Part shown: positions 3,744-45,533 of the stretch, one piece after another
How the letters are laid out: each line of letters opens with the position of its first letter
How positions within the stretch are numbered: position 1 is the stretch's first letter
From: Vicia villosa
Taxonomy: Eukaryota; Streptophyta; Magnoliopsida; Fabales; Fabaceae
Direction: 5' to 3'
DNA: 64,000 nucleotides
Assembly: GCF_029867415.1 (NCBI RefSeq)
Contig: NW_026705216.1
Location: forward strand, 653,134-717,133
The notes under the pieces: generated by a model
Databases searched by the model: none
Told to the model about the DNA's origin: nothing
What the model saw: only the letters and a program-made list of their open reading frames with translations
Made by a program: the position numbers and the translations under genes

Positions 3744-5351
3744 TGTTGAACTTGAGACTTCACATACTAGAGAGGGTGAATTGTGTGGTTCATGTAAAAT
3801 AAAAAGCAAAAAGTAAATTGCAGAAATTAAATAAGTTAAGAGAAAAGAGAAACACCAAGAATTATAGAGGTTCAATTGAAAAAAATGACTTAATCCTCTC
3901 CCTAAGAATTGTTCTTGAGAGTTTATAATAAACATTGATAATTTTTAGTATGAAAGACTCACAAAACCTCTTATACAAGGAAATTATGGTTGACCTTCAA
4001 TCAATTAATACAAGACAATGGATTTGGGGGTTTGCGTCATTTCTTCCAGGTAAACTTAGGAGTGAAGTGGGCGGACTTCCTTCCGAATGGTGGGTTGAAG
4101 CGATTAGTCCTCTTTCCACAAACAAAAACCTTGGAGTTGTTATTCCTCAAGCTTCTTAAAACTTGAGCTTTAAACTTTGGTTTTGCATGGGATAACCAAT
4201 AACCTATGAGATTTTAACGTCGGACTGATCTCGAACTTATGAAGCTTTTAATACTGGGATAAGCTTCAACTTATCTTAGTTTCATATCGGGCTAACCAAT
4301 AATGTACCAAGCTTTTAGTAGCGGGTTGACCTTGAACCTAGGAGATTGTATAGTAGGCTAATCTCGAACCTAAACTGGAACTGAATCACACAATCCCAAA
4401 TCAAAGCTTTTAACAGGTTTAGCTTCTAACTTAAATAAATCCCTAAATGAATAATATTCAACCAAGGTGTATACAAAAGATTCTCTTGGTGAATTTACAA
4501 TTTTACTCTTTCCAGAATTACAAATATATTCCCAGTCACAACGAGACTTTTCTCATAAAAGTACTTAGACTAAAATATTAGTGAGAGAAAGTGAGATAAA
4601 ACTTTAGAGAGAGAGAGAGGTGTCAAAATACGTTTTTTAATGAATTAAAATGAGAAAAATGACCTTTATTTATAGGCAACAGGTTGACTCAAAAAGGAAT
4701 TTCCAATAAATGCATTTTATGACAATCTAATCTATTGGCACATATTCATAATCGATTAGAAGTTTGAAATATAATCGCTTGTAAATTTATAAAATGAGGG
4801 AAAAGATATCTAGCCATTGAACATCGTTAAGGCGCTATCCTAATCGCTTGTGACTCAATTTTGAGCTGATCTAACCGATTGGACAAATGTTCCAACCGAT
4901 TAGAAAAGTTAAAATTTCGCCTATAGTTATTTTGACTGCTCCCAATTTATATAGCACAACTTCAAGATGTTTTTGAAGATATTTTCTTTTGGTAAAACCA
5001 TTTTGAAAATATTTTAGTGTGTGTGCTTTAGCCATGCACTTTTATGATAAAGCCCTTATGTATTACATTTGTTTCACTCATTGCTAAATTAGGATGTACC
5101 ATAATACTTCAAGACTTTGCCACATATTTTCTCTTTTGTGGACACTTACTTGAGTAGCTTGAGATGAAGCTTTAGTTACATTCCATTTGATTATCATCAT
5201 AGGATAGTCAAGTCCATCAAACCCTAATGATAAGGTTTTCATCTTTATCCGCTTAACCATTCATGCTTAATTTATTATAAGACATTAGTTCTCATCATCA
5301 AAAATCGATGTCCTTGTTAAAAGAATATCACCAGCAAAACAAGGTTCCACA
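3744..5351 (-). repeat. 3' LTR of the inner retrotransposon (1608 bp)
   Basis: The ends read tgtggaacc...caaca on the minus strand. It matches 9061-10756 along its length with many substitutions and small indels. Repeated aatcgatt/aaccgatt words occur at 4749-4760 and 4868-4905. The ORFs at 3675-3935 and 3935-4159 lie across or within the LTR and are not genes. Confidence 0.85.
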
Positions 5352-5361
5352 TTCTCCCCCT
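5352..5361 (-). promoter_or_regulatory. Polypurine tract of the inner retrotransposon
   Basis: On the minus strand a purine run (agggggagaa) directly precedes the 3' LTR. This is the plus-strand priming site of LTR retroelements and fixes the element's orientation. Confidence 0.8.
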
Positions 5362-9060: not shown

Positions 9061-10756
9061 TGTTGGACTTGAGACTTCACACACAAAAGGGGGTGAATTG
9101 TGTGGTTTAGGAAAAAGTGATTTTTAAAATCTTTGAGAAATAAAATCAGAGTTTAAAAATATTTTTGAAAACTTAACAGTAGAAAATAAATTCTAGAAAG
9201 TAAATGCGGAACTTAAAAAAGTTAAGGGAAAAGAGGAATACCAAAAATTATAGATGTTCAATTGAAACAAAATGACCTGCTACTCTCTCCAAGAACCGAT
9301 CTGAAGAGTTTCCAAAAACATATTGAGAGATTTTAGTAGGAGAGGCTCATGAACCCCCTTATACAAGGAAGTGATGGTTGACCTCTAACCAGATAATATA
9401 AGACAATAGATTTGAGCATTTTTGTCTTTTCTTCCAGATAAACTTAGGAGTGAAGTGACCAGTTTTCCTTCCTAGTGGTGGATTGAAGCGGTTAGTCCTC
9501 TTTCCACAAAAAAGAACTTTGGAGCTGCTAATCTTCAAGCTTCTTAAACCTTGATTTTGCACGGGATAACCAATAACCTATGAGATTTTAAACCCCAATT
9601 GATCTCAAACATAAAAAGCTTTTAATATCGGGGTGAGCTTTGGTCTATATTAGTTTTATATCGAGCTAACCAAGAACCTACCAGGATTTTAGTACCAAGC
9701 TGAGCGTGAACCTATGACATTGTATAACTAGCTAATCTCGAACGTAAACCAAAACTGAATCAGACAATCCCAAACCAAAGCTTTTAAAATGTTTAGCTTC
9801 TAACCCAAATAAATCCCTAAATGGATAATATTCAAAAAAAGGTCTATACACAATATTCATTTGGTGAATTTAAAATTCTATCCTTTCCAAAATTTCAAAT
9901 ATATTCTCACTCACAAAAGGATTTTTCTCACAAAGTAACTTACGCTAAAATATTAGTGAGAGAAAGTGAAATAAAATTTTAAAGAGAGGGATAGAGAGAG
10001 AAATAGAGAGAGAGAGAGAGAAGTGTTAAAATACATTTTTGGATGAAATTAAATGAGAAAATGGGCCTCTATTTAGAGGCTAGAGTTTGGCTCAAAAAGG
10101 AATTTCAAATAAATGAATTTTTTGACAATCTAATCGATTGGCACGTATTCACAATTGACTAGAAGTATTAAATATAATTGGTTGTAATTTTATAAAAGGA
10201 AAGAAAAGATATCTAGTTGTTGCACATCATTAAGGAAATGTCCTAATCGCTTGTGACTCAATTTTGAGTTAATCTAATTGATTGGTCAAATGTTCTAACC
10301 AACTAGAAAATTCAAAATTTTGACTATAGCTATTTTGACTTCTCTCATTTCATCTGGCACACCTTTAAGATGTTTTTCAGGATATTTTCTTTAGGTAAAA
10401 CTATTTTGAAAATATTTTAATGTGTGTATGCTTTTGTCATGCTCTTTTACGATAAAGTCCTTACATATTACATTTGTTTCACTCATTACTAAATAAGAAG
10501 GTACCACAGTACTTCAAGACTTTGCCATATATTTTCTCTTTTGTGGACAATTATTTGGGTAGCTTGATATGAGGCTTTAGTTACATTCCATTTGATTTCC
10601 ATTATCGGATAGTCAAGTCCATCAAACCCTGATGATAAGATTTGTATTTTTATCCGCTTAACCGTTCATGCTTGACTTATTATAACAGATCAGTTGTTAT
10701 CATCAAAAGTTGATGTTCTTGTTAAAAGCGTATCACCTGCAAAAGAAGGTTCCACT
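9061..10756 (-). repeat. 5' LTR of the inner retrotransposon (about 1696 bp)
   Basis: It aligns with the 3' LTR at 3744-5351. The first minus-strand base is mutated (agtggaacc in place of tgtggaacc). A GA-rich microsatellite lies at about 9985-10021. The two LTRs have clearly diverged, so the insertion is not recent. Confidence 0.85.
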
Positions 10757-11540
10757 TTTGAAACGTTCACACCTTTTATGTAACCAATGAATACACATTT
10801 ATTTGACTTTGGATCAAGTTTGGATATATCTTTACTAGATATATGAACATAAGTTAGACACCTAAAATCCTTAGATTATCAAAATCAATAAGATTACCCA
10901 TCCATACCTCATCTACAAACTTTCCCTCCAATGAATCTCTTGGTGACATGTTGATAAGATAACACGCCATGTTAATTATATTTTCTTAAAAACCTTTTGA
11001 AATTATTGCATTTAACAAATGACATCATTCTCTTTTAGTTAGAGAGCTATTCATTCTCTTTGTCGCACCATTTTGTTATGGTGTCTTACAAAGTGAAAAA
11101 TAACTTTGAATTTTGTGTTCTTCACCAAGCCTCTTGAAATTAGAATCACTATACTCTGTCCCATTATCGAATTGCAAATATTTGATTTTTTATACCAATT
11201 TTATTCTACCTCTTCCTTCCACAACTTGAATTTGGTAAATAAGAACTAGATTACAATATTGCAAGAAAATCATCTCTGTAAGTCATAAAATACATGGAAC
11301 CAAGTGGTCATAAGAACTTAGTAACGAGCACAACAAGATAATAACCCTGTCTTCGTCATCAATCTTCATCCCCAGCCTCATCACATTGATAACTATGTTG
11401 TTGTAAGTTGGATTTTTCCTACATCTTCATACTGTATAGTAGCTGCTTCGTGAACATTTTATTTATTAACATCATTGACATATGCTGACTCTCCAATTTT
11501 CCCCAACCGTTAGGTCTAGAATATGATACATAACATCGTA
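10757..11540 (-). pseudogene. Ty1-copia integrase piece of the outer element
   Basis: On the minus strand around 11190-10990 the sequence encodes FDNGTEYSDSNF, then QNGATKRMN. These match the conserved integrase core segments DNGxEY and QNGVAERxN. Closer to 10960-10800 it encodes YLINMSPRDSLEGK and DEVWMGN, the downstream integrase segment. Stops interrupt all frames. The reading resumes at 3743 (LWDPIK) on the far side of the inserted element. Confidence 0.75.
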
Positions 11541-18539: not shown

Positions 18540-19411
18540 GTTTTAACACAGACAGAAGATCTAGGAGCGTGTTCTTTGATAAGACTTTGAAACATCATGG
18601 TCAGCACCTACCTCTTCTTCTTGTTCTTGTTCTTGTTTTTCATCTAATCTAATCTAAATCTATCATGTTTTTCTCTTCCTCAACACCCACTTCTTCTTGG
18701 AAACTGAAACTGAAACTTCAACACCCATAATTGTTTTTGGTACTAATTTTCTTCTGGGTTGTTTGTTTCTTTCCAAAGTTTCCATTTTTATAATCTAGGA
18801 GTATGTTTTTTGTAAAAGTTATATTTGGGTTTTTTTTTTGTCGATGTTGAAATCTACTAGGTTGTTGTTATGTTTGGGGTATAGTGGAGAAAACTGATCT
18901 ACTCTTTTTTGCTTTTGATTTCACAGATCTCTTATGTTCTTTGATCTCAGCGTTTTGGAGTGTTTGAGGTTTGTTATGTTATCCTCAACTTTAATGTTTT
19001 ATGTTCTTGTTATTGTTACGTGTATGCTTCTTTGGGTGTATGAGGTATTTCATTCGATTCTATTAAGGGAAAAGGTAAACTGAAAATAGAGATGATAGAT
19101 TCTGTTGTTAGATTTGAAATCAGCTTAAATTTGTTTCTGTCAAAAGTATAGAATTTTAAGCTGCTTTAGCTTTTAGGTCCATGTGGGGCTTCGTTTGATG
19201 AGAATCTCTTTGTGCTTTTCTCTATCTGTGTTCCTTCCTTTTCTTTCTTGATCACTAAGTATTGAAAATGGAATTTTAAATTAAAGTTTTGTTTGTTTAT
19301 TTATTTATTTGCAGCTTTTCATTCTACTGGAGGAACATTTATTTATTCTTGAAGTGGTTTTGGTTATATACTAATTACTAAATTCTAAGATTGTGAGGGT
19401 GTTTGGAACAA
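18540..19411 (+). other. 5' untranslated region with probable leader intron, TLP copy 1
   Basis: A plausible untranslated first exon ends near 18600. A T-rich interval follows, with a strong acceptor (ttatttatttgcag) at 19313-19314, then about 97 bases of leader before the ATG at 19412. Leader introns are common in plant TLP genes. The same acceptor is kept in copy 2, where the first exon and donor are missing. Confidence 0.5.
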
Positions 19412-21114
19412 ATGTCGTTTCGGAGTATTGTTCGTGACGTGAGGGATGGGATTGGAAGTTTATCGAGTCGGCGTTTTGAGGTGAGGCTTCCTGGACATCA
19501 GAAGGGGAAGTCGAGGAGTTCGGTTCATGAATTGCAGGATCAGCCTCCTGTTATACAGAATAGCCGGTGGGCGAGTTTACCGCCGGAGCTTCTTCGTGAT
19601 GTTATTAAGAGATTGGAATCTAATGAGAGTACTTGGCCTAGCCGGAAACATGTGGTTGCGTGTGCTGCGGTGTGTAAGTCGTGGAGAGAAATGTGCAAAG
19701 AAATTGTTAGCAGTCTTGAGTATTGTGGGAAGATTACCTTTCCGGTTTCGCTGAAACAGGTGAGATACTGATTTTCGTTGTTTAAAAGATGTTTAAAATT
19801 TGGAACTTTGCCTAATGTTATTGTTTTTGTGCTCGGTTGATTTTTTTTGCAGCCTGGATATAGAGATGGACCAATCCAGTGTTTCATCAAGAGGGACAAA
19901 TCTAAGCTGACATACCATCTTTTCCTTTGCCTTAGTCCCGGTAAACTTTTCGATACCGAATACACTTTTTTATTTGATCATCTTGTTTTGTGGTTTATTT
20001 GAATTTTTCTATGTGATTTATTAACTTATTATTTTTCCTATTGTCTATACTGTATGAAAATTGAAAGTTTCTATCCCTCGCCGTGCGTTGGTTCGATACT
20101 TCGATTGTTTGTGAGTCTCTGAATTCTTCATTGTGTTCTTGCAGCCTTGCTTGTTGAAAATGGAAAATTTCTTCTCTCTGCTAAACGCACCAGAAGAACG
20201 ACTTGCACTGAGTATGTTATATCAATGGATGCAGATAACATATCAAGATCTAGCAGCACTTACATCGGAAAGCTTAGGTACAACCTTTTTTTTAAGCCAC
20301 AAGAACTCAAATTTTTTGTTCTTTCCTATCATTACACACTTCACATCTATTAACTTTCCCTTGTTTCAGGTCTAATTTTCTTGGAACCAAGTTCATAATT
20401 TATGATACGCAGCCTCCCTATAACAATGCTCAGTTGGCGGCTCCACCTGGACGCAGCAGCCGTAGATTCTACTCGAAAAAAGTTTCTCCAAAGGTCCCTA
20501 GTGGCAACTACAACGTCGCACAGGTAACCTACGAGTTGAATGTCCTCGGCACAAGAGGCCCACGAAGGATGAACTGCACTATGTACTCAATCCCTTCATC
20601 ATCCCTTGAGCCCGGCGGCGTTGTCCCCGGCCAGCCAGAGCTCATTTCTCGCTCACTCGAGGATTCTTTCCGTAGCTTATCCTTTGCAAGATCAATCGAT
20701 AACTCAACCGAGTTTAGCAGCTGTAGATTCTCGGACATAATGGGAGCTAGCATAATGGAAGATAGAAATGAAGACGAGGAGGGGAAGGAGAGACCTCTAG
20801 TTCTTAAGAACAAATCTCCAAGATGGCACGAACAGCTGCAATGCTGGTGCCTCAACTTTAGGGGACGTGTGACCGTAGCGTCTGTCAAGAATTTTCAGCT
20901 GATCGCTTCAACACAGCCTGCAGCCGTCCCTCCTCGTGCAGCAACTGGACCCGCACCGTCTCAGCCGGCACAGTCTGACCATGACAAGATTATTCTTCAG
21001 TTTGGTAAGGTCGGCGAGGACATGTTTACGATGGACTATCGATACCCTCTCTCGGCATTTCAGGCTTTTGCGATATGCTTGACTAGCTTTGACACAAAAC
21101 TGGCATGTGAATAG
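19412..21114 (+). CDS. Tubby-like F-box protein, copy 1 (four coding exons, 437 residues)
   Basis: Exons are 19412-19759, 19853-19940, 20145-20277 and 20370-21114. All introns are GT-AG and the frame joins cleanly. I start at ATG 19412 ([13 protein letters not shown]), as in plant TLPs. Residues 53-98 are the F-box ([16 protein letters not shown]...SWREMCKEI), which recruits an SCF ubiquitin ligase through a SKP1-like protein. Residues 117-437 are the Tubby domain, which binds membrane phosphoinositides. The basic AKRTRR patch and both Tubby signatures are intact: [14 protein letters not shown] (353-366) and [16 protein letters not shown] (422-437). By memory it resembles the Arabidopsis TLP6/10/11 group. 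Plant TLPs act in stress and hormone signalling, partly by release from the plasma membrane. This is the one clearly intact host gene in the window. Confidence 0.96.
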
Positions 21115-22302: not shown

Positions 22303-22699
22303 AATGAGTGGTTCAAATGCTTAATTGGTTGTACCTAAATCTTAGACGTTGGATTGGATATGTGCCCACTTAAAAATGTCTCCAAACACACCCTCTTACT
22401 ATTTGCTTTCAAAAGTACTACTAATGTTTAACTATTTATATGATAATCGTACCTTAATTACTAAGTCGAACCTCTATGTATTTATTAAAAAATAAAATTG
22501 AATTATAATGATAATTGTGTCACAACTAACTCATAATTTTTAATTTGACTAATTGAAGTGGTGGATCTTATCCAAAATTTTAGGGGAAACTGCCGCAAGC
22601 ACCAATTAAAGTTAGTATAATTAAAATTTAATATTAAAATTTAAAATTTAATAAATTGGCTAGATATAATTTAGTAATTTATAAAGAGATCAAATTCCC

Positions 22700-22863
22700 A
22701 TGTTGCTTATGAATGCTTGGGATGTTGGATTTATAAGAGAGGGGATCCATTCACCCATCGCCTTAAATTTTTTGTAGATACGTGGTGTAAAGGTCTCTTG
22801 TAACCATGGACATTTGATTCATTATTAACACATCCGGACCTCGCTCCATGGACTTATCCAACA
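22700..22863 (+). repeat. Short 5' LTR of a copia-like element
   Basis: It ends in ccaaca at 22863 and is followed by agtgctatcaagagcc, a degraded initiator Met primer site. Its middle (tttataagagaggggatcca) matches the LTR at 23878-24066. The LTR is unusually short for a coding copia element (about 165 bp). Confidence 0.6.
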
Positions 22864-23039
22864 AGTGCTATCAAGAGCCTTGGTTTGGTGGGGTATAAAT
22901 TTTAGTATACTTTGTGATTGTAGTTTCGTCTGATCTTCGACGTCAAAAAAGAAATTTTATACTCTGTGTTGGTTGGGAAAATTTTGGTTTGCTGCAGGAT
23001 AGATTTTGGTTGCAATGTAAAAATTTTCAAGTGCAGTGA

Positions 23040-23705
23040 AGGTTGACTTAGAGAAATTTAATGGAAGAATCAATTTTGTCTTGTGAAAAATTCAAGTCAA
23101 AGATGTTTTAATACAATTAGGAGTACACAAGGCGTTGAAAAGAAACATTTCCAACATTTCCAACGAGAAGTGTGAGAAACTGGATTTGAGAGCTTCCAGT
23201 ACAATCCACATGTCTTTGTTTAAGAATTTTCTTGTGAATGTACTTGGTACGTGGTCAACCTAAGTGCTTTGGAAGAAACTTGAATGGCTATATCATGGAA
23301 ATAGTATATCAAATAGTTTATTGTTGAATGAGCAATTTCATAGCTTGTGTATGGATGAACATTCAAAAGTATTTGATCATCTAAGTGTTTTAAAAGGTAT
23401 TGCTTATGAATTAGAAACTATTGGAGTCAAGATTGATGATGAAGATAAAGTTTTGAGACTCACATGGTCTCTTCCAATGAGCATATTAAACATGTTTTGA
23501 TATATGGGAAGGAAACTTTGAGTTTTGAAGAAGTTGCTAGTAAAATTATTTCTGAAGAAAGAAGGTTGAAGGGTGAGGATAATACTTCTTCAAACTCAAT
23601 GTTGGTTGCTAGAGGAAGGTCTTGTGTGAAAAAAAGCAATGAAACAAGTGTGAAATGTTGGAAATAAGATAGATTGGACATATAAAGTATAAGTGTCCTG
23701 ATGGG
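23040..23705 (+). pseudogene. Copia-type gag, degenerate
   Basis: Plus-strand frames encode VDLEKFNGRINF (23043 on), LWKKLEWLYHGNSISNSLLL (23264 on), FDHLSVLKGIAYELETIG and SFEEVASKIISEERR. These match the UBN2-type copia Gag in order. At 23650-23700 a damaged zinc knuckle is visible (KCWK in one frame, GHIKYKCPD in another). At least two stops and several frame changes break it. It follows the short LTR and primer site at 22700-22880, so it is the gag of that element. Confidence 0.75.
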
Positions 23706-24106
23706 GGAGCGTCCTCTCTCTTATGGTCCTATATCATTAGTCTCATTGGTGCTCTGACTCTCCCGGACTCCCCAACAGTGATATCAGAGTCGTGGTTCGG
23801 CTTGGTGGGGAGCGGGAGCTGGATTCAGTGTTGGATCTTATTATAGGATGTGGAGGACTCACACATATGGGGGAGAATGTTGGGTGCAAGTGTGATTGAT
23901 TAAAGTCCCACATTTTCTATTAATGGGTTGAATGTTAGATTTATAAGAGAGAAGATCCATTCACCCATCACTTTAAGGTTTTAGGTGAAGATGTGGCGTC
24001 TCCCTCTCTTGTGGTGTTGGGGCATTAGTCTCGTTGGTGCATCCGCCTTCTCCGGACTCCCCAATAGTGGTATCAGAGTTGTGGTTCGACTTGGTGGGGG
24101 AGCGGG
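23706..24106 (+). mobile_element. TRIM-like miniature LTR element, LTR-internal-LTR-internal
   Basis: A partial LTR ends ccccaaca at 23777. Its internal region is only about 100 bp, with a primer site (tgatatcagag, 23779-23789) and a polypurine tract (tgggggagaa, 23868-23877). A complete 189-bp LTR follows (23878-24066, tgttggg...ccccaata). A second primer site (tggtatcagag, 24068-24078) begins another internal region, which is cut at 24106 by a CACTA end. Short LTRs, a 100-bp interior and no coding capacity are the TRIM definition. The tandem order implies LTR-LTR recombination between copies. Confidence 0.75.
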
Positions 24107-25027
24107 CACTACGCCAAAAATGAGTTTTACTAGCGCACCTTAGACATCGCTTTCTTCCAAAAGTGCTGCTATAAGTTAAATAAAAAATAAAACACGGAAA
24201 CTGTATACGAAAAAGAGTAAAAGCGCGGCTAAAAGGCCTACCTTAGACAACGCTTTTCTCAGAAGCGCTGTCTAAATTCATGTAAAATTTTTTAAAAATA
24301 TTCTCAAAAGCGAGGCCCATATTAGCCAACGCTTTCAATAGCGCTGCTAAAGGTCTACCTTAGCCAGCGCTTTTTCTCCAAAGCGCTGTCTTAGACGAAT
24401 TATACTAACACTAATAAAAAAATAGATTCTAATCACTGTTAAACTTACTTTCTATTCTCTATTATCGTTTTTCTTCTCTCCCAAGTAAAAACCCGAGAAT
24501 CTCAATTAATCAGTGTTAACCCTAGAATCTCACCAAAATCTTCTGAATCCTCAACGAAATCGGAAAACCCTCATGAAAATTTCTTCTTTTGCACGACCGC
24601 GAATTCAGAAATCGAACCCAACACCTTCTCAATCCATTTCAACAACTATTCCATCAACATTGCATCGTAAGTATCTTACTCAAAACCACTTTCTCATCGA
24701 TTCCATCTCTACTTTTGTTCAACCTAAAATTTCATTTTGTTTTCGCGACCTAACAGATTTGAAGGAAATAGCATTGAAACTGGTTCAAACTCTAAGGAAG
24801 TTCGTAGGATTTCTCGTGTCGTACGCCTTACAATTGCTTTAAGGTCTAAACTCACAGCTCCAGTTCTCTCATCGTTCATCGATCACGGTCTTCCTACTAC
24901 TTCTGAGTCTCATTCTAGGTTATCTTCTTATCTTCCTAAGGTAATCTGTTTTCTCTGATTTAAACCTTTACATTGTATTAGGTGTTAGGTCTGTTTGAAT
25001 TGACTTATTCATAAACAACTTATAACT
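24107..25027 (+). mobile_element. Left end of a CACTA element carrying an RPN3 fragment; right end not found
   Basis: It starts CACTACGCCAAAAA at 24107, directly after ggg. The first 280 bases hold direct and inverted copies of aaaagcgctg/cagcgctttt. This is the same terminus and subterminal family as the complete element at 35402-40664. It carries two host-derived exons (24560-24940). No matching ggcgtagtg end occurs to the right within reach, so the element is truncated; a repeat unrelated to CACTA starts at 25028. Confidence 0.8.
24560..24940 (+). pseudogene. Captured fragment of 26S proteasome subunit RPN3 (PSMD3) gene
   Basis: Exon-like piece 1 ends at 24666 (PSQSISTTIPSTLH, then gtaagt). 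Piece 2 starts after cag at 24757 and ends at 24940 before gtaatc. Joined across the splice it reads STLH-H-LKEIA. After a frame-changing deletion it continues SIETGSNSKEVRRISRVVRL, LTAPVLSSFIDHGLP and SRLSSYLPK, the N-terminal region of plant RPN3. RPN3 is a PCI-domain lid subunit of the 26S proteasome. Only the first about 80 residues are present. Intron retention shows capture from genomic DNA rather than cDNA. The frame break means it is non-functional. Identified from memory of the family. Confidence 0.75.
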
Positions 25028-26905: not shown

Positions 26906-27799
26906 TAGCCTACACTTACCAAATTCAGGATAATCATTATCAACTTTCATCCACTATGGTGAGTCTGCTGGATGTCGCAACTTTCCATCAATAATTCTTT
27001 CATCTGCATGCCAAGTCAAGTGTCTTGAATCGGTTTCACTACGATACATGCGTCTAAATCTCGGAATTATAGGAAAATACCATAAAACTTTTGCCAGAGA
27101 CAACTTTTTCTTATATCGAGGGGAACCGCATTTAGGACACTCATTTAACGCTGCATACTCGTTTCGAAACAAAACGCAATCTTTTGGACAAGCATGTATC
27201 CTATCATAGCTCAGGCCAATAGAGGACAACATCTTTTTGGCCTCATACATTCGATTGGGAAGAACATTATACTCTGGTAGCATATCTTTCATAAGGGCTA
27301 ATAACTCAGTGAAACTTTTATCTGACCATCCATTTTTCGACTTTAAGTTGTACAACTTTAACACCACAGACAATCTTGTGAATTTTGTACAACCATCATA
27401 CAACAGTTTCTCTGCATCGCTTACCAACCTCTAAAACATTTCGGGAAAATCCTCAAGATCTTCTTCAAGTGCTTCTGCAATCTCTTCGACTCGATCATAA
27501 TCGTATGTGTTTGTGCCATTGTCGTTTGAAGCATACGTCGTATTATCCCCTGATTTGACATTCCCGTTACTTTTCTCACCATGCAAATTCCAACATGTAT
27601 AACTTCTATCAATTCCAAACAGTACTAAATGCGATGCCAACTGAACCACGTCAACCCGACTCCCATAACAACAACCTAAGCAAGGACACTTCATTCGACT
27701 CGGGTCTTCAGCGTGCGCAACCGCAAATTTAACTAATTTCGATACCCCTTTCTCGTACTCTTTCGACAATCGATTTGAATGCATCCATGTCTTATCCAT
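26906..27799 (-). pseudogene. CACTA TNP2-type transposase N-terminal half, two premature stops
   Basis: The frame opens at 27799 with MDKTWMHSNRLSKEYEKGV, the transposase-associated domain, with KCPCLGCCYG near 27680. It continues to DFPEMF, where TAG (27431-27433) replaces the usual Glu. The same frame then carries SDAEKLLYDGCTKFTRLSVV and LYNLKSKNGWSDKSFTELLA, then PKCGSPRYKK, the TNP2 domain. Near 26954 a second TAG replaces the Gln of DSPQW. WMKVDNDYPEFGK follows, and the reading is cut at about 26905 by copia sequence. TNP2 proteins cut CACTA ends. Both stops are single-base in-frame changes, so decay is modest. Confidence 0.88.
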
Positions 27800-28480
27800 G
27801 TCTTAATTAAGCTAAACAAAAACAAAATATTAAGGCACAACTAATTAGAGTAGAAACGATCCATCATAGCAGTTCATTCAAAGCATAAAGTTAGTAAGTT
27901 CATCACTTAACGATTAACAGCATTGCCATCAAGAATCATAACAAAAACAGAAAAGATCCGAGTTTGATTCTCGATTTTACTACTAAGTAAGCTAAACAAA
28001 AACGCTAATTAGTCACACAACTATAACAAAAGAATAACTAATTACCTGTAGTGAAATTTAGGAGCCTCTAGAACCACACACCGTAAGATAATCTGATGTC
28101 TCTAGTGACATTCTCTTAAAAAATCTTTAATATCCCCGGAAAAACAAAGTTTAGAACAATTAGCCTTTACCATGGTCGGCTCAGAACAATTTCAAAGCTA
28201 CATGGGGCATTAAATCATAGAGGTGCCACTATTATCACAAAGTCAATTAAAGTATAAGAATTACATGAAACTCATAAAATAGAACTACTCCATAAAGCAC
28301 AAAAACAATCTCATTTTAACTTTCAACAAACACAACAATAGCATAATAGAACTACTTTTTTTTGGGCTGGAAAATGAAACTAATCTCATTTAAACAATTT
28401 TAAGAATCTGTTACTAAGAGTGATAACATCATTCTACTGTAAAATTTATGAGAAAAAAATAATAGAACTGTCATGAAGAA
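27800..28480. other. Spacer upstream of TNP2 remnant
   Basis: AT-rich, no recognised gene. It may contain 5' sequence of the CACTA element, but no CACTA terminus or subterminal repeat was seen. Confidence 0.4.
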
Positions 28481-28489
28481 TTTACAGAA

Positions 28490-28683
<194 letters not shown>

Positions 28684-30820: not shown

Positions 30821-32969
30821 TTTTCTCTATATGTGTTCCTTCCTTTTATTTATTGATCACTAAGTATTGAAAATGGAATTTTAAATATTAAAGTTTTGTT
30901 TGTTTATTTGTTTGCAGCTATTCATTCTAGTGGGAGAACATTTTTTTATTCTTGAAGTGATTTTGGTGATATCCTAATTACTAAATTCTAAGATTGTGAG
31001 GGTGTTGGAACAAATGTCATTTCGGAGTATTGTTCGTGACGTGAGGGATGGAATTGGAAGTTTATGGAGTCCGCGTTTTGAGGTGAGGCTTCCTGGAGAT
31101 CAGAACGGGAAGTCGAGGAGTTCGGTCCATGAGTTGCAGGATCAGCCTCCTGTTATACAGAATAGCCGGTGGGCGAGTTTACCGCCGGAGCTTCTTCGTG
31201 ATGTTATTAAGAGATTGGAATCTAATGAGAGTACTTGGCCTAGTCGGAAACATGTGGTTGCGTGTGCTGCAGTGTGCAAGTCGTGGAGAGAAATGTGCAA
31301 AGAAATTGTTAGCAGTCTTGAGTATTGTGGGAAGATTACTTTCCCGGTTTCACTGAAACAGGTGAGATACCGATTTTCTTTGTTTAAAGGATGCTTAAAT
31401 TTGGAACTTTGCCTAATATTATCGCTTTTGTGCGTGCATGTTTGATTTTTATTGCAGCCCGGGTATAGAGATGGACCAATCCAGTGTTTCATCAAGAGGG
31501 ACAAATCTAAGCTGACATACCACCTTTTCCTTTGCCTCAGTCCCGGTAAACTTTTTGATACCGTATTATCTTTTTATTTGATATATTCTTGTCTTGTGAT
31601 TTATTTGAATTTTTCTACGTGATTTATTATCTTACGAGTTATGGCGCTTGATGGTTTATTTTTCATCTTGTCCATGCTGTATGAAAGTCGAAAGTTTCTA
31701 TCCCACTCTGTGTATTGGTTCGGTACTTCAATTGTTATCTATGCTGGCATAAATATGAATTGAACAAGTTTTAAGATCAGGTAGTTTGTTGGTATCTGAA
31801 TTCTGCACTGTGTTCCTGCAGCTTTGCTAGTTGAAAATGGAAAATTTCTTCTCTCGGCTAAACGCACCAGAAGAACGATTTGCAATGAGTATGTTATATC
31901 AATGGATGCAGATAACATATCACGATCTAGCAGCACTTACATTGGAAAGCTTAGGTATGGCTTTTCTTTTTTAAGCCGCAAGAACTCGAGTCTATTGTTC
32001 TTTCCTTACCATTATGCACTTCACGTATTAACTTTCCCTTGTTTCAGGTCTAATAATTTTCTTGGAACCAAGTTCATAATTTACGATACACAGCCTCCAT
32101 ATAACAATGCTCAGTTGGCGGCTCCACCTGGACGCAACAGCAGTAGATTCTACTCAAAAAAAGTTTCTCCAAAGGTCCCTAGTGGCAACTACAACGTCGC
32201 ACAGGTCACCTATGGCTTTAATGTCCTCGGCACCCGAGGTCCACGCACCCAAGGTCCACGAAGGATGAATTGCACTATGTACTCAATCCCTTCATCATCC
32301 CTTGAGCCCGGTGGCGTTGTCCCAGGCCAGCCAGAGCTCATTTCTCGCTCACTCGAGGATTCTTTCCGTAGCTTATCCTTTGCAAGGTCAATCGATAACT
32401 CAACCGAGTTTAGCAGTTGTAGATTCTCGGGCATAATGGGAGCTAGCATAATGGAAGATAGAAATGAAGACGAGGAGGGGAAGGAGAGACCTCTAGTTCT
32501 TAAGAACAAATCTTCAGGATGGAACGAACAGCAGCAATGCTGGTGCCTTGACTTTAGGGGACGCGTGACCGTAACGTCCGTCAAGAATTTTCAGCTGATC
32601 GCTTCAACACAGCCAGCAGCCGTCCCTCCTTGCGCAGCAACAGGACCTGCGCCGTCGCAGCCGGCTCAGTCTGACCATGACAAGATTATTCTTCAGTTCG
32701 GTAAGGTTGGCGAGGACATGTTTACGATGGACTATCGATACCCTCTCTCGGCGTTTCAGGCTTTTGCGATATGCTTGACTAGCTTTGACACAAATATTTA
32801 TTAGATGAGTGGTTCAAATGCTTAATTGGTTGTACCTAAATCTTAGATGTTGGATTGGATATGTGCCCACTTAAGAATGTCTCCAAACACACCCTCTTAC
32901 TATTTGCTTTCAAAAGTACCACTAATGTTTAACTATTTGTATGATATATATTCGTACTTTAATTATTAA
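30821..32969 (+). repeat. Derived copy of the TLP segmental duplication
   Basis: Matches 19216-22463 except that about 1.2 kb (21103-22300 of copy 1) is missing. It starts inside the leader intron, keeping the intron acceptor (30916-30917) but not the first exon or promoter. Confidence 0.9.
31014..32804 (+). CDS. Tubby-like F-box protein, copy 2, altered C-terminus (441 residues), probably decaying
   Basis: Exons 31014-31361, 31458-31545, 31822-31954 and 32048-32804 have the same splice sites as copy 1 and an open frame. The F-box is kept. Differences fall in conserved Tubby positions: TYGFNVLG for [22 protein letters not shown] for [14 protein letters not shown], and TVTSVKNFQ for TVASVKNFQ. 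There are two in-frame insertions: one Asn (SNNFLGTK) and five residues from a 15-bp tandem duplication at 32231-32260. The last five residues (KLACE) are replaced by NIY because a 1.2-kb deletion joined the gene to former downstream sequence. The second Tubby signature and native 3' UTR are gone, and there is no duplicated promoter. It could be expressed from a new promoter, but reduced constraint is more likely. Confidence 0.85.
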
Positions 32970-33360
32970 GGCTATGTCTTGGAAAAATAACAGCTGGATA
33001 ATAAGTTCGTTGATAGCTATAGCTTATGACTAAGGGGTGATGACTGATGAATTGTAGCGGATGACTAATGATTTATAGCTGATAAATTAATTAAAATATT
33101 TGTTAAAACTAGTTGTTCAAATAGATGATAAATTAAAATGATATAAAAAATATTTAATATATAATTATTTTTTAATTAAAATAAATTATAAAGGGCAATA
33201 GTGGATTTTAGTTAAAATAATAAAGATAAAATGGAATAAAATATGATAAGGTATAAGCTATAAGTTAAAACTCTATTTAAAATACCGTATGAAAAATAAG
33301 TTATAAATTAGTAAAATAAGCTATAAGCTCGTGATGAAAAGACTGTTACCAAACAAATTT
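32970..33360. mobile_element. MITE-like element at the end of the TLP duplication
   Basis: Begins ggctatgtcttggaaaaata and ends with gttaccaaacaaat, imperfectly inverted. The interior is full of agctataagctataag-type words seen in common legume MITEs. It starts exactly where homology to TLP copy 1 flanking DNA stops. Confidence 0.55.
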
Positions 33361-35318: not shown

Positions 35319-35401
35319 TATGTGATGTCAAAGATTCTTGAACTCCCAATATTTGGTCTATTGACATTTCTGGGTCTCGCTCCTCGAATTCTTCAATAAA
35401 T
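35319..35401 (+). repeat. LTR 3' end of a TRIM-like element, split by the CACTA insertion
   Basis: Ends gaattcttcaataaat. Removing the CACTA element joins this to ggtatcagagtctgg at 40668, the layout LTR-end plus primer site seen in the related element at 24060-24080. Confidence 0.6.
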
Positions 35402-35700
35402 CACTACGCCAAAAACAGTTTTTGGCAGCGCCACTTAGACAGCGCTTATTTCCAAAAGCGCTGCTATACATAAAAAATAAAATAAAACACGGGATATATA
35501 CACAAAACTGGGTAAAAGCGCTGTTAAAAGGTGCACTTTAAAAAGCGCTTTATGAAAGGGCTGTCATAGACTCACATTAGAAAGCGCTTGTTTGAAAGCG
35601 CTAGCATAGGCCCCCGTTACAAAGCGTTTTTTATAAACGCTGCCATAGGTCCAGTGTTTGTTTTCCTAAAAAGCGCTGCTACAGTAAATAATAATAAAAA
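35402..35700. repeat. Left TIR and subterminal repeats of the CACTA element
   Basis: About ten copies of an agcgct-centred 10-bp word in both orientations follow the CACTACGCCAAA terminus. Confidence 0.88.
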
Positions 35701-35719
35701 AAATAAAACAAAATAAAAA

Positions 35720-36440
35720 CTAATGAAATTAGATTTAGGGTTTTTCACCGTTTCTTTCTCTCTCTCACCGTAACAGTACCCTCTCACCATTCTTTCTCTC
35801 TCACCCTAACATTACCTCACTTCTCTCTCACCGCTGCCGTTACAAAATCGATTCACACCGCCGCCGTAAGAAACTCCTTCCATCTCAGTTAAAGAAGAAG
35901 CTCTCAAACCCCATCGATTTGGATTTCATACCTCTCTCACACGAAGAAACCCCATCGGTGAAACAATCTCTCCGACGAAGAAGCCCCTCACTCTCATTTC
36001 AGGATACGAGCTAAGTATTATACAAAAGTAAAATTGTTCTTCTCTTCATTTTTTCTGCAAACACTCTCTCCGACGAAGAAGCCTCTCCCTTGGAAGTTTC
36101 TTTTTCTCCGACGAAGAAGCTCCAGTCGCAATCTTCCTATCATTTTCACTTTGTTGAAGCTCAAGAGGAAGAATCATAAGGGTTTCTTGCATTATTCAGA
36201 GGCATTGAGTGAGTTTATCTCACTCTCAAGAGGTAAGTTCAAATCTGAGTTCTTTCATCTCTAGCATGTTTCAGATGATTTGAAGCTTCTATATATGTTG
36301 TTAGCTGGCCAGATAATAGATATGATGTATAATTGTGGTTGGTCTTGAGCTCCATCGTGTTTTTTAGTTTCTGAAAATTTTGAAGAAATAGTTGAATCCG
36401 TGAGTTGGAGCTTGATTTTCTGTGATTTTGCATTTTGCAC
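35720..36440 (+). other. Host-like 5' sequence inside the CACTA element, gene not identified
   Basis: A CT-rich, leader-like stretch with repeated tctccgacgaagaagc (35968, 36068, 36105) is followed by an open stretch ending LHYSEALSEFISLSR and a donor-like gaggtaagttc at 36231-36240. It looks like a captured 5' UTR plus a first exon, perhaps of a fourth gene or of the callose synthase donor. I could not identify it. Confidence 0.45.
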
Positions 36441-36444
36441 TAGG

Positions 36445-36762
36445 GGTCTTCCTTGGCCTAACGACTACAAGAAAAAAAAGACGAAGACATTTTGGATTGG
36501 CTTGGGTCGATGTTCGGATTTCAGGTAAACAAAATCTGGAAATGCGAAGTTACTTATTTCTTTAAATAATCTTCAATTTTGTTTTTCAAAACTACTTCAC
36601 CACTAATTAATTGAATTGGATTTGTTTGTTTATCCTTTTGGTTTTAATATATTTTTATACGTAATTCAGAAGCACAATGTTACAAATCAGAGAGAGCATT
36701 TGATCTTATTGCTTGCTAATGTTCACATAAGATAATTTCCAAAGCCTGATCAGCAGCCCAAG
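36445..36762 (+). pseudogene. Captured callose synthase (glucan synthase-like) exons
   Basis: Piece 1 ends at 36524 and encodes GLPWPNDY, then after a poly-A frame shift DILDWLGSMFGFQ, followed by gtaaac. Piece 2 (36670-36762) encodes KHNVTNQREHLILLLANVHI and FPKPDQQPK, with TAA in place of a Gln codon between R and F, and is followed by a gtcag donor. These match a conserved N-terminal cytosolic region of plant callose synthases (FGFQKDNVANQREHLILLL...), large plasma-membrane beta-1,3-glucan synthases. Only about 60 of some 1900 residues are present, so no enzyme can be made. The intron between the pieces is retained. Confidence 0.85.
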
Positions 36763-38078
36763 GTCAGTTTTTGATTTCAAGCATTAGTACAGTACATATT
36801 TTCAATTTAACTTTTGTAGAAAACTGTTTTAATTTATTTAATTTTTCAAGAAAATGTAAAGCAAAGGTAAAAAAACAAATGAAGAATGAAGAGCGTGTTT
36901 AGTTGACCGATCCTATTTTCCTATGGTAGAACTATAAGCTACTGTGTTGAATTTTCTTCTCTTCTTGTACCTCATTGTTTCTACTGCTATGATATTTTGT
37001 GAAGCATACGAGGGTTTTACTGTTATGTTTACAGTTTAATCTCAAAGTCTGATTTTGTTGTTGCTATATGTTAAGAGGCTTAGAAGCTTGAATTCTGCTC
37101 GGTATTTTTGCTGTCACGTGGAATCTTGTTTGAGCTTGGGTTACCTTGTAGATGGTTTCCAAGCTTGCCACCTAGTTTGGAAGGGCCAAAAAGGGATTCC
37201 TAACCTTTGGCTTAAACTATCTATCCTCCTTCTATAAGGGTTGTGAATATTGTGCCCAATGTTGTTAGTAAGTATCGCGCGATTTGTACGACTCATATCT
37301 TGGTTTGAAAATGTTATCAAATGTGATTGATACATATCAAAGGGTTTCGAGTTGTTTCTCTTGTCTTTTTTATGTCATATATTGTTTTTGCTAATTTTGT
37401 GTAATAGTAGCCAATTATGACTTGATCGGTCGATTAAAACATTTTATAAGTAGCCAATTATGGATTTACATTAATGAAGAATTTGTTCATGATAAAGCAT
37501 TTCAATTTCCTATTAATGAAGTAGCAGAATTTAAGTACTCCTTCATTCATGAGATCAAAGACTAGTTACTATTCTTAAATTTAAGTAGCAGAATTTAAGT
37601 ACTCCTTCATTCATTAGTTGTTTGGTTGATGAATTAACCTTTGCTTGATCCTCAACATTGTAGTTTATTCAGCTCACTCTTGAAATTACGGATTACTACA
37701 TATTTGATTTCAGCTTAAATTTAAGCTATGGAACTTTAGATTTGTGTACTTGATTACTGGAATTAAGGGCTGTGTGTATTTGCTATTGATTTGGAATGTG
37801 AGACTCTATTGTTGTTTTGTTGGTTCTCTCATAGGATATTTATTTATAGATAAGAAAATTAGGAGATATGAAGTGAAGAATTTTATAGCAGGGCACTAGT
37901 AATACTATATTACTATAAAATAAGACTGAGAAGGTCGAAGAAGTAGCTCCTGAGGTTAGTCTCTATTTATATCCTTTCACTTTTTTTTGCTGAATCATGG
38001 TGGGATGAAGAACAAGAGCATCTGCAACATCAGCCCCTTTAGATCCTTTCACCCTTTTCACACAGTTTCCCGTTTCAG
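36763..38078 (+). other. Intron-like and unidentified DNA between captured fragments
   Basis: AT-rich, T-biased sequence like plant introns. A direct repeat containing tagcagaatttaagtactcc occurs at 37521 and 37585. ORFs at 37055-37237 and 37141-37335 have no recognised domain. Confidence 0.4.
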
Positions 38079-38487
38079 ATCACAAAAGCCGCCGTTGATA
38101 TAGTTCGCGGATTAACCGGCTCCGATGAAGGCATACATTCCTTATCCAATCAAGCAAATACCTTGATCCCCTCACTCTCCCGTCTCTTAACGGCACCAAA
38201 GGTAAACATCTATCACTGTCGTTAGGGTTTATACTTTTTTCGATTATTTATTATTTTTGGAATTGATGATGATGGTTGACTGGTTTCAGGAGGTTTTTGA
38301 GACTGCTGCTGAAGCTCTTGTGAATCTTTCGCAGAATTCAAATCTTGCGACGGAAATGGTTCGAATGAGAATAGTTGAATCTACGATGGATGTTTTGTAT
38401 AAGCCGGAGTGTTTTGTTACTCGTTTGCTTGTTATGCTTTTGGTTAATCTCACTCAACTTGATGCTGGTACTGATTCCTTGCTTCAG
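38079..38487 (+). pseudogene. Captured HGH1-like ARM-repeat gene fragment, two exons
   Basis: Exon 1 (38079-38201) encodes ITKAAVDIVRGLTGSDEGIH and LIPSLSRLLTAPK. A GT-AG intron (38202-38289) follows. Exon 2 (38290-38487) encodes EVFETAAEALVNLSQNS, LYKPECFVTRLLVMLLVNLT and QLDAGTDSLLQ, then a gtgtgt donor. The order matches the N-terminal region of plant HGH1 homologues (ARM-fold proteins related to yeast Hgh1, an elongation factor 2 folding chaperone). The frame is open across both exons, so this piece is better preserved than its neighbours, but the start and C-terminal two thirds are missing. It is a transposon-captured fragment, not a gene. Confidence 0.83.
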
Positions 38488-38796
38488 GTGTGTTTTTGTT
38501 TATTTATTTTGAAAGTAATTTGGACTGTTTCTTCAATTCAATCAGAAAAAACTAAAAGGAATAATATTTTTGAAGTTGTCAAAACAATGGTTGATGTTAT
38601 GATAAATACATGATGATTTGATTAGCATAATGAAGAAAATAAACTCGAATTGAATGGACAAAATCATGGTTTGTATTTCAATGCATTGAATCGATTAATT
38701 TTTTTTATTTTATATACCTTCCCAAGATTGAAGCTAGTAAATCATAATGAGAAAAATGGAAGAGGAATTAGCCAAACACATTCCACAATCAGAAAA

Positions 38797-39894
38797 ATGG
38801 GTTGCTCCACTTTATCTCTTCATCACCTTCTTTTTTCATCTCTTTTTATTTTCAGTTTGTTGCTCAATCAGGTTCATGCCACCAAAAAGGTAATCCAATT
38901 TTGCTTCTTAAGACCATGGATTCATTAATTTGATATGCTATTTGTTTTTTACTATTATCCTAATAATTTACAGTGTTACATTGTATACTTGGGAGCACAT
39001 TCTCATGGTCCAACTCCTTCCTCTGCTGACCTTCAAATTGCTACAACTTCTCATTATGATTTACTAGCTTCAATCATGGGAAGGTATATAAAGTAACAAA
39101 ACTAACCATTGCAATATTCTACTTAATTAAGCTCTTTCTTGTATTGAAATTGATTGATAAAGTCATATATATTGATTATTGACTGTGACAGTGAGGAGAA
39201 TGCAAAAGAAGCAATTATTTATTCATACAATAAACAAATCAATGGGTTTGCAGCTATGCTTCAAGAGGAAGAAGCTGCACAAATTGCAAGTATGTTTTTA
39301 TTATATTTTCAACTTAATAATAATGATAAATTTGTTTTCAAAACACACATATATTTATTTATGTGCAGAAAATGAAAAGGTGGTATCGGTGTTTTTGATT
39401 AAAGAGCATAAACTTCACACTACGCGTTCATGGCATTGCGTAAAAACAGCGCGTGACTTTGTAGGTCACGGGACTCATACATTATCAAGACTTGCAACAT
39501 GTAAAGTGTGCTGGTCTTTAACTGATGCTACTAGTTGTTTTGGTGCGGATGTATTAGCTGCCATTGATCAAGCAATTAATGACGGTGTTGATTTGATTTC
39601 TGTTTCTGCTGGTGAAAGTACTGGTACAAATTCTGAAGAAGTTTTTACTGATGTGGTTTCAATAGGTGCATTTCATGCACTTGCTAGAAATATATTGCTA
39701 GTTGCTTCTTCCGGAAATGATGGACCTACCACTGGAAGTGTTGTTAATGTTGCCCCTTGGGTTTTCACTGCTGCTAGTTCTAAAACAGTTAGAGAAGGGA
39801 AAATAAAATCAGTTTCTGAGCCTCATGTTTTGTCTACTGTCAGCTACGACAAACATCCTGAGACCCATTCAAATGTCATGGGCTGGCCGTTTGG
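38797..39894 (+). pseudogene. Captured subtilase (S8 serine protease) fragment with internal deletions
   Basis: Exon 1 (38797-38889) encodes a signal peptide (MGCSTLSLHHLLFSSLFIFS...ATKK). Exon 2 (38974-39083) encodes CYIVYLGAHSHGP, and exon 3 (39192-39289) encodes YSYNKQINGFAAMLQEEEAA: the I9 inhibitor propeptide. Exon 4 (39369 on) starts NEKVVSVFLIKEHKLHTTRS, then jumps to TARDFVGHGTHTLS (catalytic His) and again to ATCKVCW...GADVLAAIDQAINDGVDLIS and VASSGNDGP. The block with the catalytic Asp (DTGVWPES) is deleted, and the fragment stops before the catalytic Ser (GTSMS). It is therefore inactive. Splice junctions of exons 1-4 still join in frame, so a chimeric transcript encoding a secreted truncated protein is possible. 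Confidence 0.88.
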
Positions 39895-40149
39895 TAAGTG
39901 TAGACATGTATGTGTGGCTATGTATTTGTATGAACTTTGGTAGAGTTGTTGTTTGTATTCTTTTTTTTTACAGTTTCGGCGCTAAGTTAGTCGGTGTTGC
40001 ATCGGTAGAATATACTATGTTAGGAAGAATGTAAATAGGTTAACAGTTGATTGTATATTATCAAAGAATGTAAATAAGTTAACTGGTGATTGTATGTTAT
40101 CATTTCATCATTAATTTTTTTACTGAATTTTCATTTGTATATTTCCAAA

Positions 40150-40201
40150 CAATGATATTATTATTATGATTATTATGATTATGATTATGATTATGATTAT
40201 G

Positions 40202-40240
<39 letters not shown>

Positions 40241-40241
40241 T
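40150..40241. repeat. (ATT)n/(ATG)n trinucleotide microsatellite
   Basis: A run of att and gattat units; the poly-Asn/His minus-strand ORF across it (40100-40288) is an artefact. Confidence 0.95.
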
Positions 40242-40299
40242 TGTGTAAAAAACAGGTGCATATAAAATATATAATTCAAACAGCGCAATTTTAAGTAAA

Positions 40300-40664
40300 T
40301 TATATAAAAAAAATTGTATAGCTTAGATAGCGCTTTACACTAAAAGTGCTGCCTAAAGTAGCTTTTCTTTTTTAATTTTTGGTTTACTAAAAGTGCTGCC
40401 GTAGGGGGGCTTTTAGCAGCGCTTTTAAATAAAAGCGCTAGCTTAGGTGGGCCTTTAGCAGCGCTTTTAAACTAAAAGTGCTGGCTTAGTGGGGCTTTTA
40501 GCAGCGCTTTTAAACTAAAAGCGCTGGCTTAGGGGGGCCTTTAGCAGCGCTTGCCTTTTAAAAAAAGCGCTGTCTTTACCTACAGCAGCGCTGGAATAGA
40601 TAGCGCTTTAAAGCGCTGTCTAAAGCCAAAAAAAGCGCTGTCTAAGGTCTTGTTTGGCGTAGTG
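40300..40664. repeat. Right subterminal repeats and TIR of the CACTA element
   Basis: Inverted pairs of agcgcttttaaactaaaagc type are arranged about every 55 bases (40395-40560), followed by aagcgctgtctaa copies and ending ggcgtagtg. The dense pairing would let the end fold into hairpins. Confidence 0.9.
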
Positions 40665-40666
40665 AA

Positions 40667-40853
40667 TGGTATCAGAGTCTGGTTGATTCGGTGGAGGAAC
40701 GGAAGTAGATCTTAGTGTGCATCAAGGCTAGTGGTGTGAGTGACTCCCACTTGTGGACGAGATTGTTGGGTTTCAAGTATAAATGGTAAAATCTCACATT
40801 GAGTAGGAATAAAAGAAATGTTAGATTTATAAAAGAGGTGACTCACATGTCAT
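40667..40853 (+). mobile_element. TRIM-like internal region and partial right LTR
   Basis: Primer site tggtatcagag at 40667-40677. An about 85-base interior ends at gtggacgagat, and an LTR-like tgttgggtttcaag starts at 40764 and contains gttagatttataaaagaggt, similar to the LTR at 23878-24066. The LTR is cut by the dispersed repeat at 40858. Confidence 0.62.
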
Positions 40854-40857
40854 TATC

Positions 40858-41500
40858 TACATTTAGCAATTGAGTAAGAAAACCACAATCATAAAATTTC
40901 TTAACAAAAACTTAACTGTCACAAGTAGTTTTGTCATACATGTGCCTCTCGATAAGTAGTTTTATCATACATGTGTCTCTCTCTATGAGTGGATCAAATT
41001 TCATGTATTATTGTTTTTTTATGTTTGCTTGAGCCCATACAAATATTTTTTTAGTTTGCAAACAAGTTATTATTTAACTTTGAACCCTTAAGTTATTTTA
41101 TATAGCCTAGCGTTCAAATGGGCACTTCCGTGTCCGTTTGTCCGTTTTTTTTAATGTGCACAGCATCAAAACCCAAACGTATTTCTTTATTTCATATTGA
41201 TCTTAATTTAAAATATTTATTAAATAAATTTTGTGATAGAAATTAAAAAAATAAATAAATGAATTGTAAAAAAAAATAGATGAATTGTAAAATAAGATCA
41301 CCTGAAAATGAACTAAATAAATAGGTATTAAATAGGAGTTAATTACATGCATTTATTTGTAATTATCAAATGTGTTTAAACTAAGATATATTAGTCTAAA
41401 CTCACTTAAGTGTTTGTTTGTCCTCTTTTTTTATTTCACAAATTCGTGTATGTATTTTATTATGTTTTTCCCATACTTCTATTTAAAAAAAGAATATTAA
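40858..41500 (+). repeat. Dispersed repeat, copy B (partner 25028-25690)
   Basis: Closely matches copy A from tacatttagc to aagaatatta. The tandem second unit present after copy A (25757-25908) is missing here. Confidence 0.88.
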
Positions 41501-44397: not shown

Positions 44398-45533
44398 ATG
44401 GATACCGCTGACGAGGAGCAGGGGAGAAAAAGCTATAATCCATTATCGTTCTACTCCCCTGATCCGATCAAGGTAAACAAGTCCTTACAATTAAAGCTGC
44501 TCAACAAAAACTATATTCCACTCTCGCTCTTCACCTACGGTTCCACCGCCGACCGCCGTCGTCAATCAAAGAGGTCAGCAAAATTCCACTATGGTTCTAC
44601 GATGTCTCCAAATCAAAGGTTAGCATAAACTCTATTCCTAATAAAGTTGCTTTCTCTATTCTTTCAAAACTCTCCATAAAGTCATTGAAGCGCTTTGAAT
44701 GTCTAGGCAAAACATGGTCCACTTTATTTGAAAACCCTGACTTCATGACCTTGCACAGCAACCATTTCATATCTCGTCACGGTTCTGATGATGATCATCG
44801 TACATTTCTTCTCACTCTCACACCTGCACCTGCTCTTTACAACTGTGAATTCTATTTGCTCGGCAACCCACTCAAACTCAATTTGCCATCTCCATTTCAA
44901 CGCCCTTGCTCCTTTGTTTCTATTCTCGGCTCCACAAGTGTTAACGGCATTTTTTGTTTAAAAACTAATTCTTGGAGATGGATCAGCATGAACGGGAGGA
45001 TTGATCTGGATCATTGGATGTATACTGGGTCATTTGATGGTCATGAAGTTTATGTGGATGGAACCTGTCATTGGTTGTTTACTAAGGATGACAGCAAAGA
45101 ACAACATACTGTAGTAACTCTATTGTCATTTGACCTGAGTAATCAGGCGTTCATTACAACACCCATCGGGGAAGAATCTATCACTCCACACACTTATAAT
45201 AGACGCTTGGCCGTGTTAAATGCCTCAATTGCTTTACTCTCAAATTATGACGATAATATTGTTTTTCACATATCTATTCTGGGTCAACTTGGTGTGACTG
45301 AATCATGGACCAAACTATATATTTGTGGCCCCTTACCTTCCCTCGAATGGCCCCCATATGGATTTGGGAAGATGGGATATATGTTCTTTGAAAAAACAGA
45401 TGGTGAACTAGCCTATGTTGATCTGAGCACCCAAAAAATTGAGGAAGTTGATATCACTACTAGAAGCGCATGTTTATTTACGGTCGGTCTTTACAAGAAA
45501 AGCCTTCTTTCGATCAGAGGATCAAGTAAATAG
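44398..45533 (+). CDS. F-box protein with FBA-type C-terminal domain, start uncertain
   Basis: The frame open to 45533 encodes SINSIPNKVAFSILSKLSIK and SLKRFECLGKTWSTLFENPD, a legume-type F-box, then an F-box-associated region (CHWLF, LLSFDLSNQAFITTPI). It would be an SCF substrate receptor of unknown target. No in-frame ATG precedes the F-box. Two models fit. (a) Exon 44398-44472 (MDTADEEQGRKSYNPLSFYS...PDPIK) is spliced by gtaaac...caaag to 44619-45533, giving about 330 residues. (b) An unspliced gene starting at ATG 44602 (MSP) has lost one base near 44610, making it a pseudogene. The intron of model (a) is GC-rich and coding-like, which favours (b). Length is shorter than usual for the family (about 390). 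Confidence 0.72.

Follow-up and report, generated by a model that had tools for sequence, protein, structure and literature searches.

Within a 64,000-nucleotide stretch of the Vicia villosa genome (contig NW_026705216.1, positions 653,134 to 717,133; hereafter the window), the segment 35402-40664 is, with a probability of roughly 95%, a non-autonomous Pack-CACTA transposon carrying pieces of three host genes, those for callose synthase, HGH1 and a subtilase. All features of CACTA and Pack-CACTA elements that were tested with a clear result were found, namely the termini, the 3-bp target-site duplication (a hallmark of the CACTA superfamily), the subterminal arrays, the lack of a transposase and the presence of host coding DNA. 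The borders are marked by the following features:

35402-40664, CACTA element of 5263 bp, both ends present
35399..35401, left target-site duplication AAT, from the flank reading and the joined flanks
40665..40667, right target-site duplication AAT, from the flank reading and the joined flanks
35402..35413, + strand, 5' terminal inverted repeat CACTACGCCAAA
40653..40664, - strand, 3' terminal inverted repeat TTTGGCGTAGTG
35402..35700, 5' subterminal array with 7 AGCGCT
40270..40664, 3' subterminal array with 12 AGCGCT

The element opens with CACTACGCC at 35402 (in a longer reading, CACTACGCCAAAAACAG) and closes with GGCGTAGTG at 40664, the last bases there being TTTGGCGTAGTG. The CACTA...TAGTG termini thus read form a perfect 12-bp inverted repeat (CACTACGCCAAA). 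A previous reading of this DNA (the original prediction) had described ends of 9 bp; the inverted repeat itself stands, and its exact length is 12 bp. How often such ends arise by chance was estimated from dinucleotide shuffles of the window, with CACTA pairs allowed 0.3-20 kb apart. A repeat of at least 9 bp with a 3-bp duplication appeared in 26 of 300 shuffles and is therefore insufficient alone, and a repeat of at least 12 bp, with no duplication required, appeared in 66 of 600. The CACTA ends by themselves are good, short of overwhelming, support; far stronger is the contribution of the arrays. Of the AGCGCT hexamers in the window, 7 fall within the left 299 bp, 12 within the right 395 bp and 6 outside these two ends, four of the latter in a second element of the family at 24107. 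Shuffling the ends 500 times gave on average 1.4 copies and never more than 7, compared with the observed 19, and the repeats of the arrays occur as direct and inverted pairs.

The insertion site was studied by fusing the left flank directly to the right one, minus the second AAT, and aligning the product within the window under permissive scoring. The joined flanks span the junction in an alignment to 23760-23951 (138/198, 70%, E 2e-17), with 22 matched bases to the left of the junction, and in another to 22772-22891 (84/123, 68%, E 2e-8). Since AT-rich matches that do not span the junction scored up to E 3e-6 and the scoring was permissive, the alignment to 22772-22891 is weaker than its E-value looks. 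The right flank opens with AATGGTATCAGAG, which in our estimation resembles the primer-binding site of long terminal repeat retrotransposons. The element is inserted within a retrotransposon relic, and the two stretches are related relics without the element. They support the borders as relatives of the site, as distinct from an orthologous empty site. Both fall between matched parts of a paralogous block, in which 19216-21098 matches 30821-32794 (88%), 22304-22465 matches 32805-32970 (94%) and 25028-25690 matches 40858-41499 (93%). The stretches 22688-24106 and 40665-40857 contain several retrotransposon relics, related to one another, that carry a TGGTATCAGAG-like site. A chance origin of the ends was rejected on the shuffle controls together with the related sites that run continuously across the insertion point. 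The termini, both arrays and the AAT duplication claimed by the original prediction are accordingly present, backed by these shuffles and the joined flanks.

The interior of the element contains the following pieces:

35721..36232, + strand, CT-rich leader containing TCTCCGACGAAGAAGC-like repeat units, with a donor-like CAAGAG/gtaagt at its end (36233)
36439..36524, + strand, callose synthase 3 exon piece (amino acids ~217-250), frameshift in its A-run
36670..36762, + strand, next callose synthase exon (amino acids ~242-278), with intron 36525-36669 retained and an in-frame TAA stop at 36733-36735
37992..38030, + strand, tentative small C-terminal piece of callose synthase (amino acids ~1740-1754), from profile and tblastn
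38058..38201, + strand, HGH1 exon 1 piece (amino acids ~12-59)
38290..38487, + strand, HGH1 exon 2 (amino acids ~59-125), intron 38202-38289 kept
38700..38753, - strand, inverted 54-nt copy of 39048-39101, 51/54 identical (94%)
38797-38889, 38974-39083, 39192-39289 and 39369-39893, + strand, subtilase exons 1-4 with start codon and introns, exon 4 internally deleted
39894-39973, + strand, putative last intron, followed by a short terminal exon with an early stop, to 40110

All named cargo pieces lie on the + strand. The five complete donor introns (one callose synthase, one HGH1, three subtilase) have GT/AG borders without exception, and GT stands at two further donors (that of callose synthase exon 2 is at 36763). 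The claim of three unrelated host genes captured in one orientation with their introns is borne out, and the kept introns rule out a processed (retrotransposed) origin of the cargo. The proposed identities were likewise returned by the searches, callose synthase and HGH1 by the large protein search and the subtilase by PDB and Pfam. They stand, and the description of the cargo has to be extended by the frameshift and stop in callose synthase, the deletions in subtilase exon 4 and a likely second small callose synthase piece. No transposase family was found in a six-frame Pfam search of 35700-40330, as predicted; the scan returned I9, S8 and one match to an unrelated family at E 0.59. The leader-like CT-rich region is also where it had been reported, upstream of the cargo. 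Neither the leader (35721-36232) nor 36763-37991 had a match in Pfam (six frames) or PDB (one + frame), and no gene can be named for either.

Both callose synthase exon pieces match callose synthase 3 of many plants, and in alignments to Lathyrus and Trifolium proteins amino acids 219-279 are covered. For the 43-residue region of the second exon, 364 of 366 candidates in the protein search reached E <= 1e-3, the best 4e-12. Among the best 120 matches, the first 31 are 85-94% identical to the query and cover 77-93% of it; the ranking of the best 120 of 366 does not single out Fabeae. In the first exon the frame shifts within the A-rich run; in the second, the TAA stands where the aligned relatives read Q. 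The callose synthase piece alone gave no Pfam or PDB match, its identity being settled by the protein search. A profile of 60 callose synthases was also run against the 4008 stop-to-stop open reading frames (ORFs) of the window, in which ORF 37947-38039 ranked third (E 0.015). The match is a stretch of 15 residues at model positions 1740-1754, placed by tblastn at 37992-38030, and it is likely a second callose synthase fragment. Weak matches to callose synthase at 37117-37158 (E 7.0) and 39930-40028 (E 0.67) were set aside as chance.

HGH1 exon 2 had 327 of 374 candidates at E <= 1e-3. Its top match is a Vicia faba protein with 92% identity, the next named ones coming from Cicer and Trifolium, and 38076-38201 is identical to residues 18-59 of the Vicia faba HGH1 at 42 of 42 positions. 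By this HGH1 ranking, and by it alone among the cargo rankings, the host would probably belong to the Fabeae. A profile of 76 HGH1 proteins scored E 3.9e-32 and 6.9e-16 on the two ORFs. In Pfam the piece reached E 0.012, below cut-off, and in PDB its best matches were designed armadillo chains only (best E 0.0013), so that here too the protein search settled the identity.

The joined subtilase exons, the short terminal one included, give an open reading of 280 residues. This reading matches the I9 prodomain (6e-16) and Peptidase_S8 (2.9e-6) in Pfam, and in PDB cucumisin (3.2e-19), 7eox, titled "Protease" (1.8e-17), and the subtilisin-like protease 3i6s (9.6e-15). By these matches it is a plant-type subtilase cargo with internal deletions, comprising the prodomain and a portion of the catalytic domain. 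Relative to all three PDB chains listed, the element peptide omits 27 chain residues after the GTHT motif; the part before this skip scores 4-6 bits alone, and the skip rests on the common motif and on an offset that is equal in all three. Between the end of the prodomain and the GTHT motif there is presumably a larger gap of ~77 residues, if the mature enzyme starts at TTRSW. Judged by the subtilase motifs, the region of the catalytic His is kept and those of Asp and Ser are gone. The tail after the last internal deletion has no PDB match by itself, and its assignment to the subtilase is our assumption. A 39-bp tandem duplicate is located at 40025-40102.

The junction between the HGH1 and subtilase pieces holds a further trace. 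The inverted copy at 38700-38753 lies between HGH1 exon 2 and the subtilase start codon, the sequence following that exon being presumably HGH1 intron 2, and its source (39048-39101) spans the boundary between subtilase exon 2 and the intron that follows. A local inverted insertion of this kind would be the expected trace of a template switch in repair synthesis; template-switch models of gene capture by DNA transposons are treated in an earlier study (PMC8277862).

A second element of the family is present in the window:

24107..25027, + strand, 5' end, AGCGCT array and RPN3 exons, 3'-truncated

It shares the first 14 bases and the AGCGCT array with the first element, 136 of 168 aligned 5' positions being identical, gaps aside, and differs by its RPN3 cargo, the missing 3' end and the GGG at its left. 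It is the one family member with other cargo in the window. The exons behind its array match PDB 8amz_S (E 4.6e-14), which is titled 'PCI domain-containing protein' and which we take to be RPN3 (26S proteasome subunit 3); the Pfam match to the PSMD3 N-terminal family (E 3.9e-4) is below cut-off. The element stops before 25028, where the paralogous flank starts. Within its retrotransposon relic it is placed ~40 bp beyond the point at which the first element interrupts its own. Given these different positions, the two would seem to have inserted independently, in the same orientation, and because the flanks differ (GGG vs AAT) they were not moved as one unit. A single CACTA insertion predating the block duplication was considered and ruled out by the differing points in the relics; it is also contradicted by the 5' ends, which are 76% alike (81% without gaps) vs 88-94% for the flanks. 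That both elements sit in retrotransposon relics within ~40 bp of the same point and in the same orientation may reflect a hot spot or chance.

The outer ends of the two elements, at 24107 and 40664, share 12 bp and bracket a Tubby-like gene (PF01167, E 6.7e-81), a layout that is the starting point of the neighbouring-element capture model. A duplicated F-box/Tubby-like gene (19216-21098 and 30821-32794, 88%) lies inside the larger paralogous block. A relic of a CACTA transposase gene is found at 26954-27802 (- strand), with a Transpos_assoc domain (E 1.9e-18) at 27431-27802 and a following ORF that in our judgement resembles TNP2; no functional transposase source was located in the window. 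Elsewhere the window has a direct repeat of ~1.6 kb (3796-5353 vs 9183-10758, 81%), a long run of AT dinucleotides at 28523-28657 and, at 44463-45533 (+ strand), an ORF of 356 amino acids with weak F-box and F-box-associated matches, all below the Pfam cut-offs.

The element would have depended for its movement on a CACTA transposase supplied in trans and acting on the AGCGCT arrays and the ends common to the family. Its cargo may have been gained when a broken element was repaired by faulty copying that switched templates, in which case the inverted 54-bp subtilase copy at the cargo junction and the internally deleted donor pieces would be footprints of the capture. We regard this route of capture as about an even call. 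Because the splice sites of the cargo look intact, a transcript that runs into the element could yield spliced chimeras; peptides made from these would mostly be non-functional relics.

Several points weigh against the Pack-CACTA reading or this account of it. The combination of a repeat of at least 12 bp and the duplication arises by chance in 4 of 600 shuffled windows, no other copy of the 35402-40664 element was seen within the window, and the duplication and the related empty sites would be the sole grounds for deducing mobility. There is also a rival route of capture, which we hold to be possible but doubtful. Two CACTA elements inserted close together in the same orientation would lose complementary inner ends, and their outer ends would then move the chromosomal DNA between them, repeatedly. 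This is a published model for Pack-CACTA elements (PMC8903248, PMC13317346), and the window does contain two members in the same orientation, the left of which lacks its 3' end; their 5' ends are separated by 11.3 kb. However, three unrelated genes, the subtilase deletions and the inverted local copy fit template-switch copying at least equally, as does the internal deletion that callose synthase would have if its small second piece is genuine.

Two readings would give the cargo a present function. The element could be a live chimeric gene, in which the 280-residue subtilase part, with prodomain and partial catalytic domain, yields a protein product, perhaps a decoy. Exons 1-4 are indeed open with intact splice sites, despite the internal deletions in exon 4. 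We nevertheless find this very unlikely, as the regions of the catalytic Asp and Ser are gone by the subtilase motifs, the callose synthase part has a frameshift and a stop, and in-frame deletions may be chance. Also very unlikely is a hairpin gene, in which an RNA read across 38700-39101 would form a long stem, and small RNAs made from it would act in trans to silence the donor subtilase. The predicted RNA fold of 38695-39106 has -112.1 kcal/mol vs a shuffled mean of -69.05 (z -7.63, 0/100 shuffles), and if this reading were true, one template-switch accident at capture would have made a passenger fragment a regulator. Hardly credible, finally, is an ordinary chromosomal pseudogene cluster lying by chance between CACTA-like motifs, for which the shuffle frequencies (4/600 for the 12-bp pair with duplication, 26/300 for the 9-bp pair) leave some room but which is opposed by the dense arrays at both ends and by the related sites continuous across the insertion point.

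The Pack-CACTA reading places the element beside several described systems. Tgm-Express1 of soybean (Glycine max, wp allele of F3H) is a CACTA element of 5.7 kb with five unrelated host gene fragments, the exons and introns of which are spliced into chimeric transcripts (PMC1947982). The present element is likewise a legume CACTA (5.3 vs 5.7 kb) carrying host fragments with introns and GT/AG borders, but it has captured three other genes and lies in a retrotransposon relic, being known from its sequence, whereas Tgm-Express1 is in the intron of a gene and its chimeric transcripts were shown (PMC1947982). This comparison covers size, cargo, introns, splice sites and insertion site. Pack-CACTA elements of Arabidopsis and maize also combine CACTA ends with host coding DNA, Pack-TYPE elements with genic DNA from several loci are reported, and clusters of elements are annotated there; the end sequence is different, CACTACAA being given for the Arabidopsis autonomous elements (PMC8903248). 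For animal Pack-TIR elements, capture by template switching has been proposed in the gap-filling and FoSTeST models (PMC8277862); there the likeness is in the route and the hosts differ. CACTA elements with gene fragments are also reported in Chenopodium (PMC8978399). By titles and the starts of abstracts, the literature search returned no CACTA gene capture in Pisum or Vicia, which is no claim of absence from print, and the literature matches listed for the end sequence CACTACGCC were unrelated by title.

The element is thus a real but unsurprising further example of a kind known from soybean, Arabidopsis and maize. New here are the second family member at 24107 with RPN3 and the 54-bp inverted subtilase copy (94%) upstream of the subtilase piece. 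It is a well-bounded multi-gene CACTA capture in a Fabeae-like legume, with related empty sites and a sibling with other cargo in one window. This makes it a usable case for testing gene acquisition by plant CACTA elements, with the general picture unchanged; a specialist may find the inverted copy at the junction and the sibling close by worth following.

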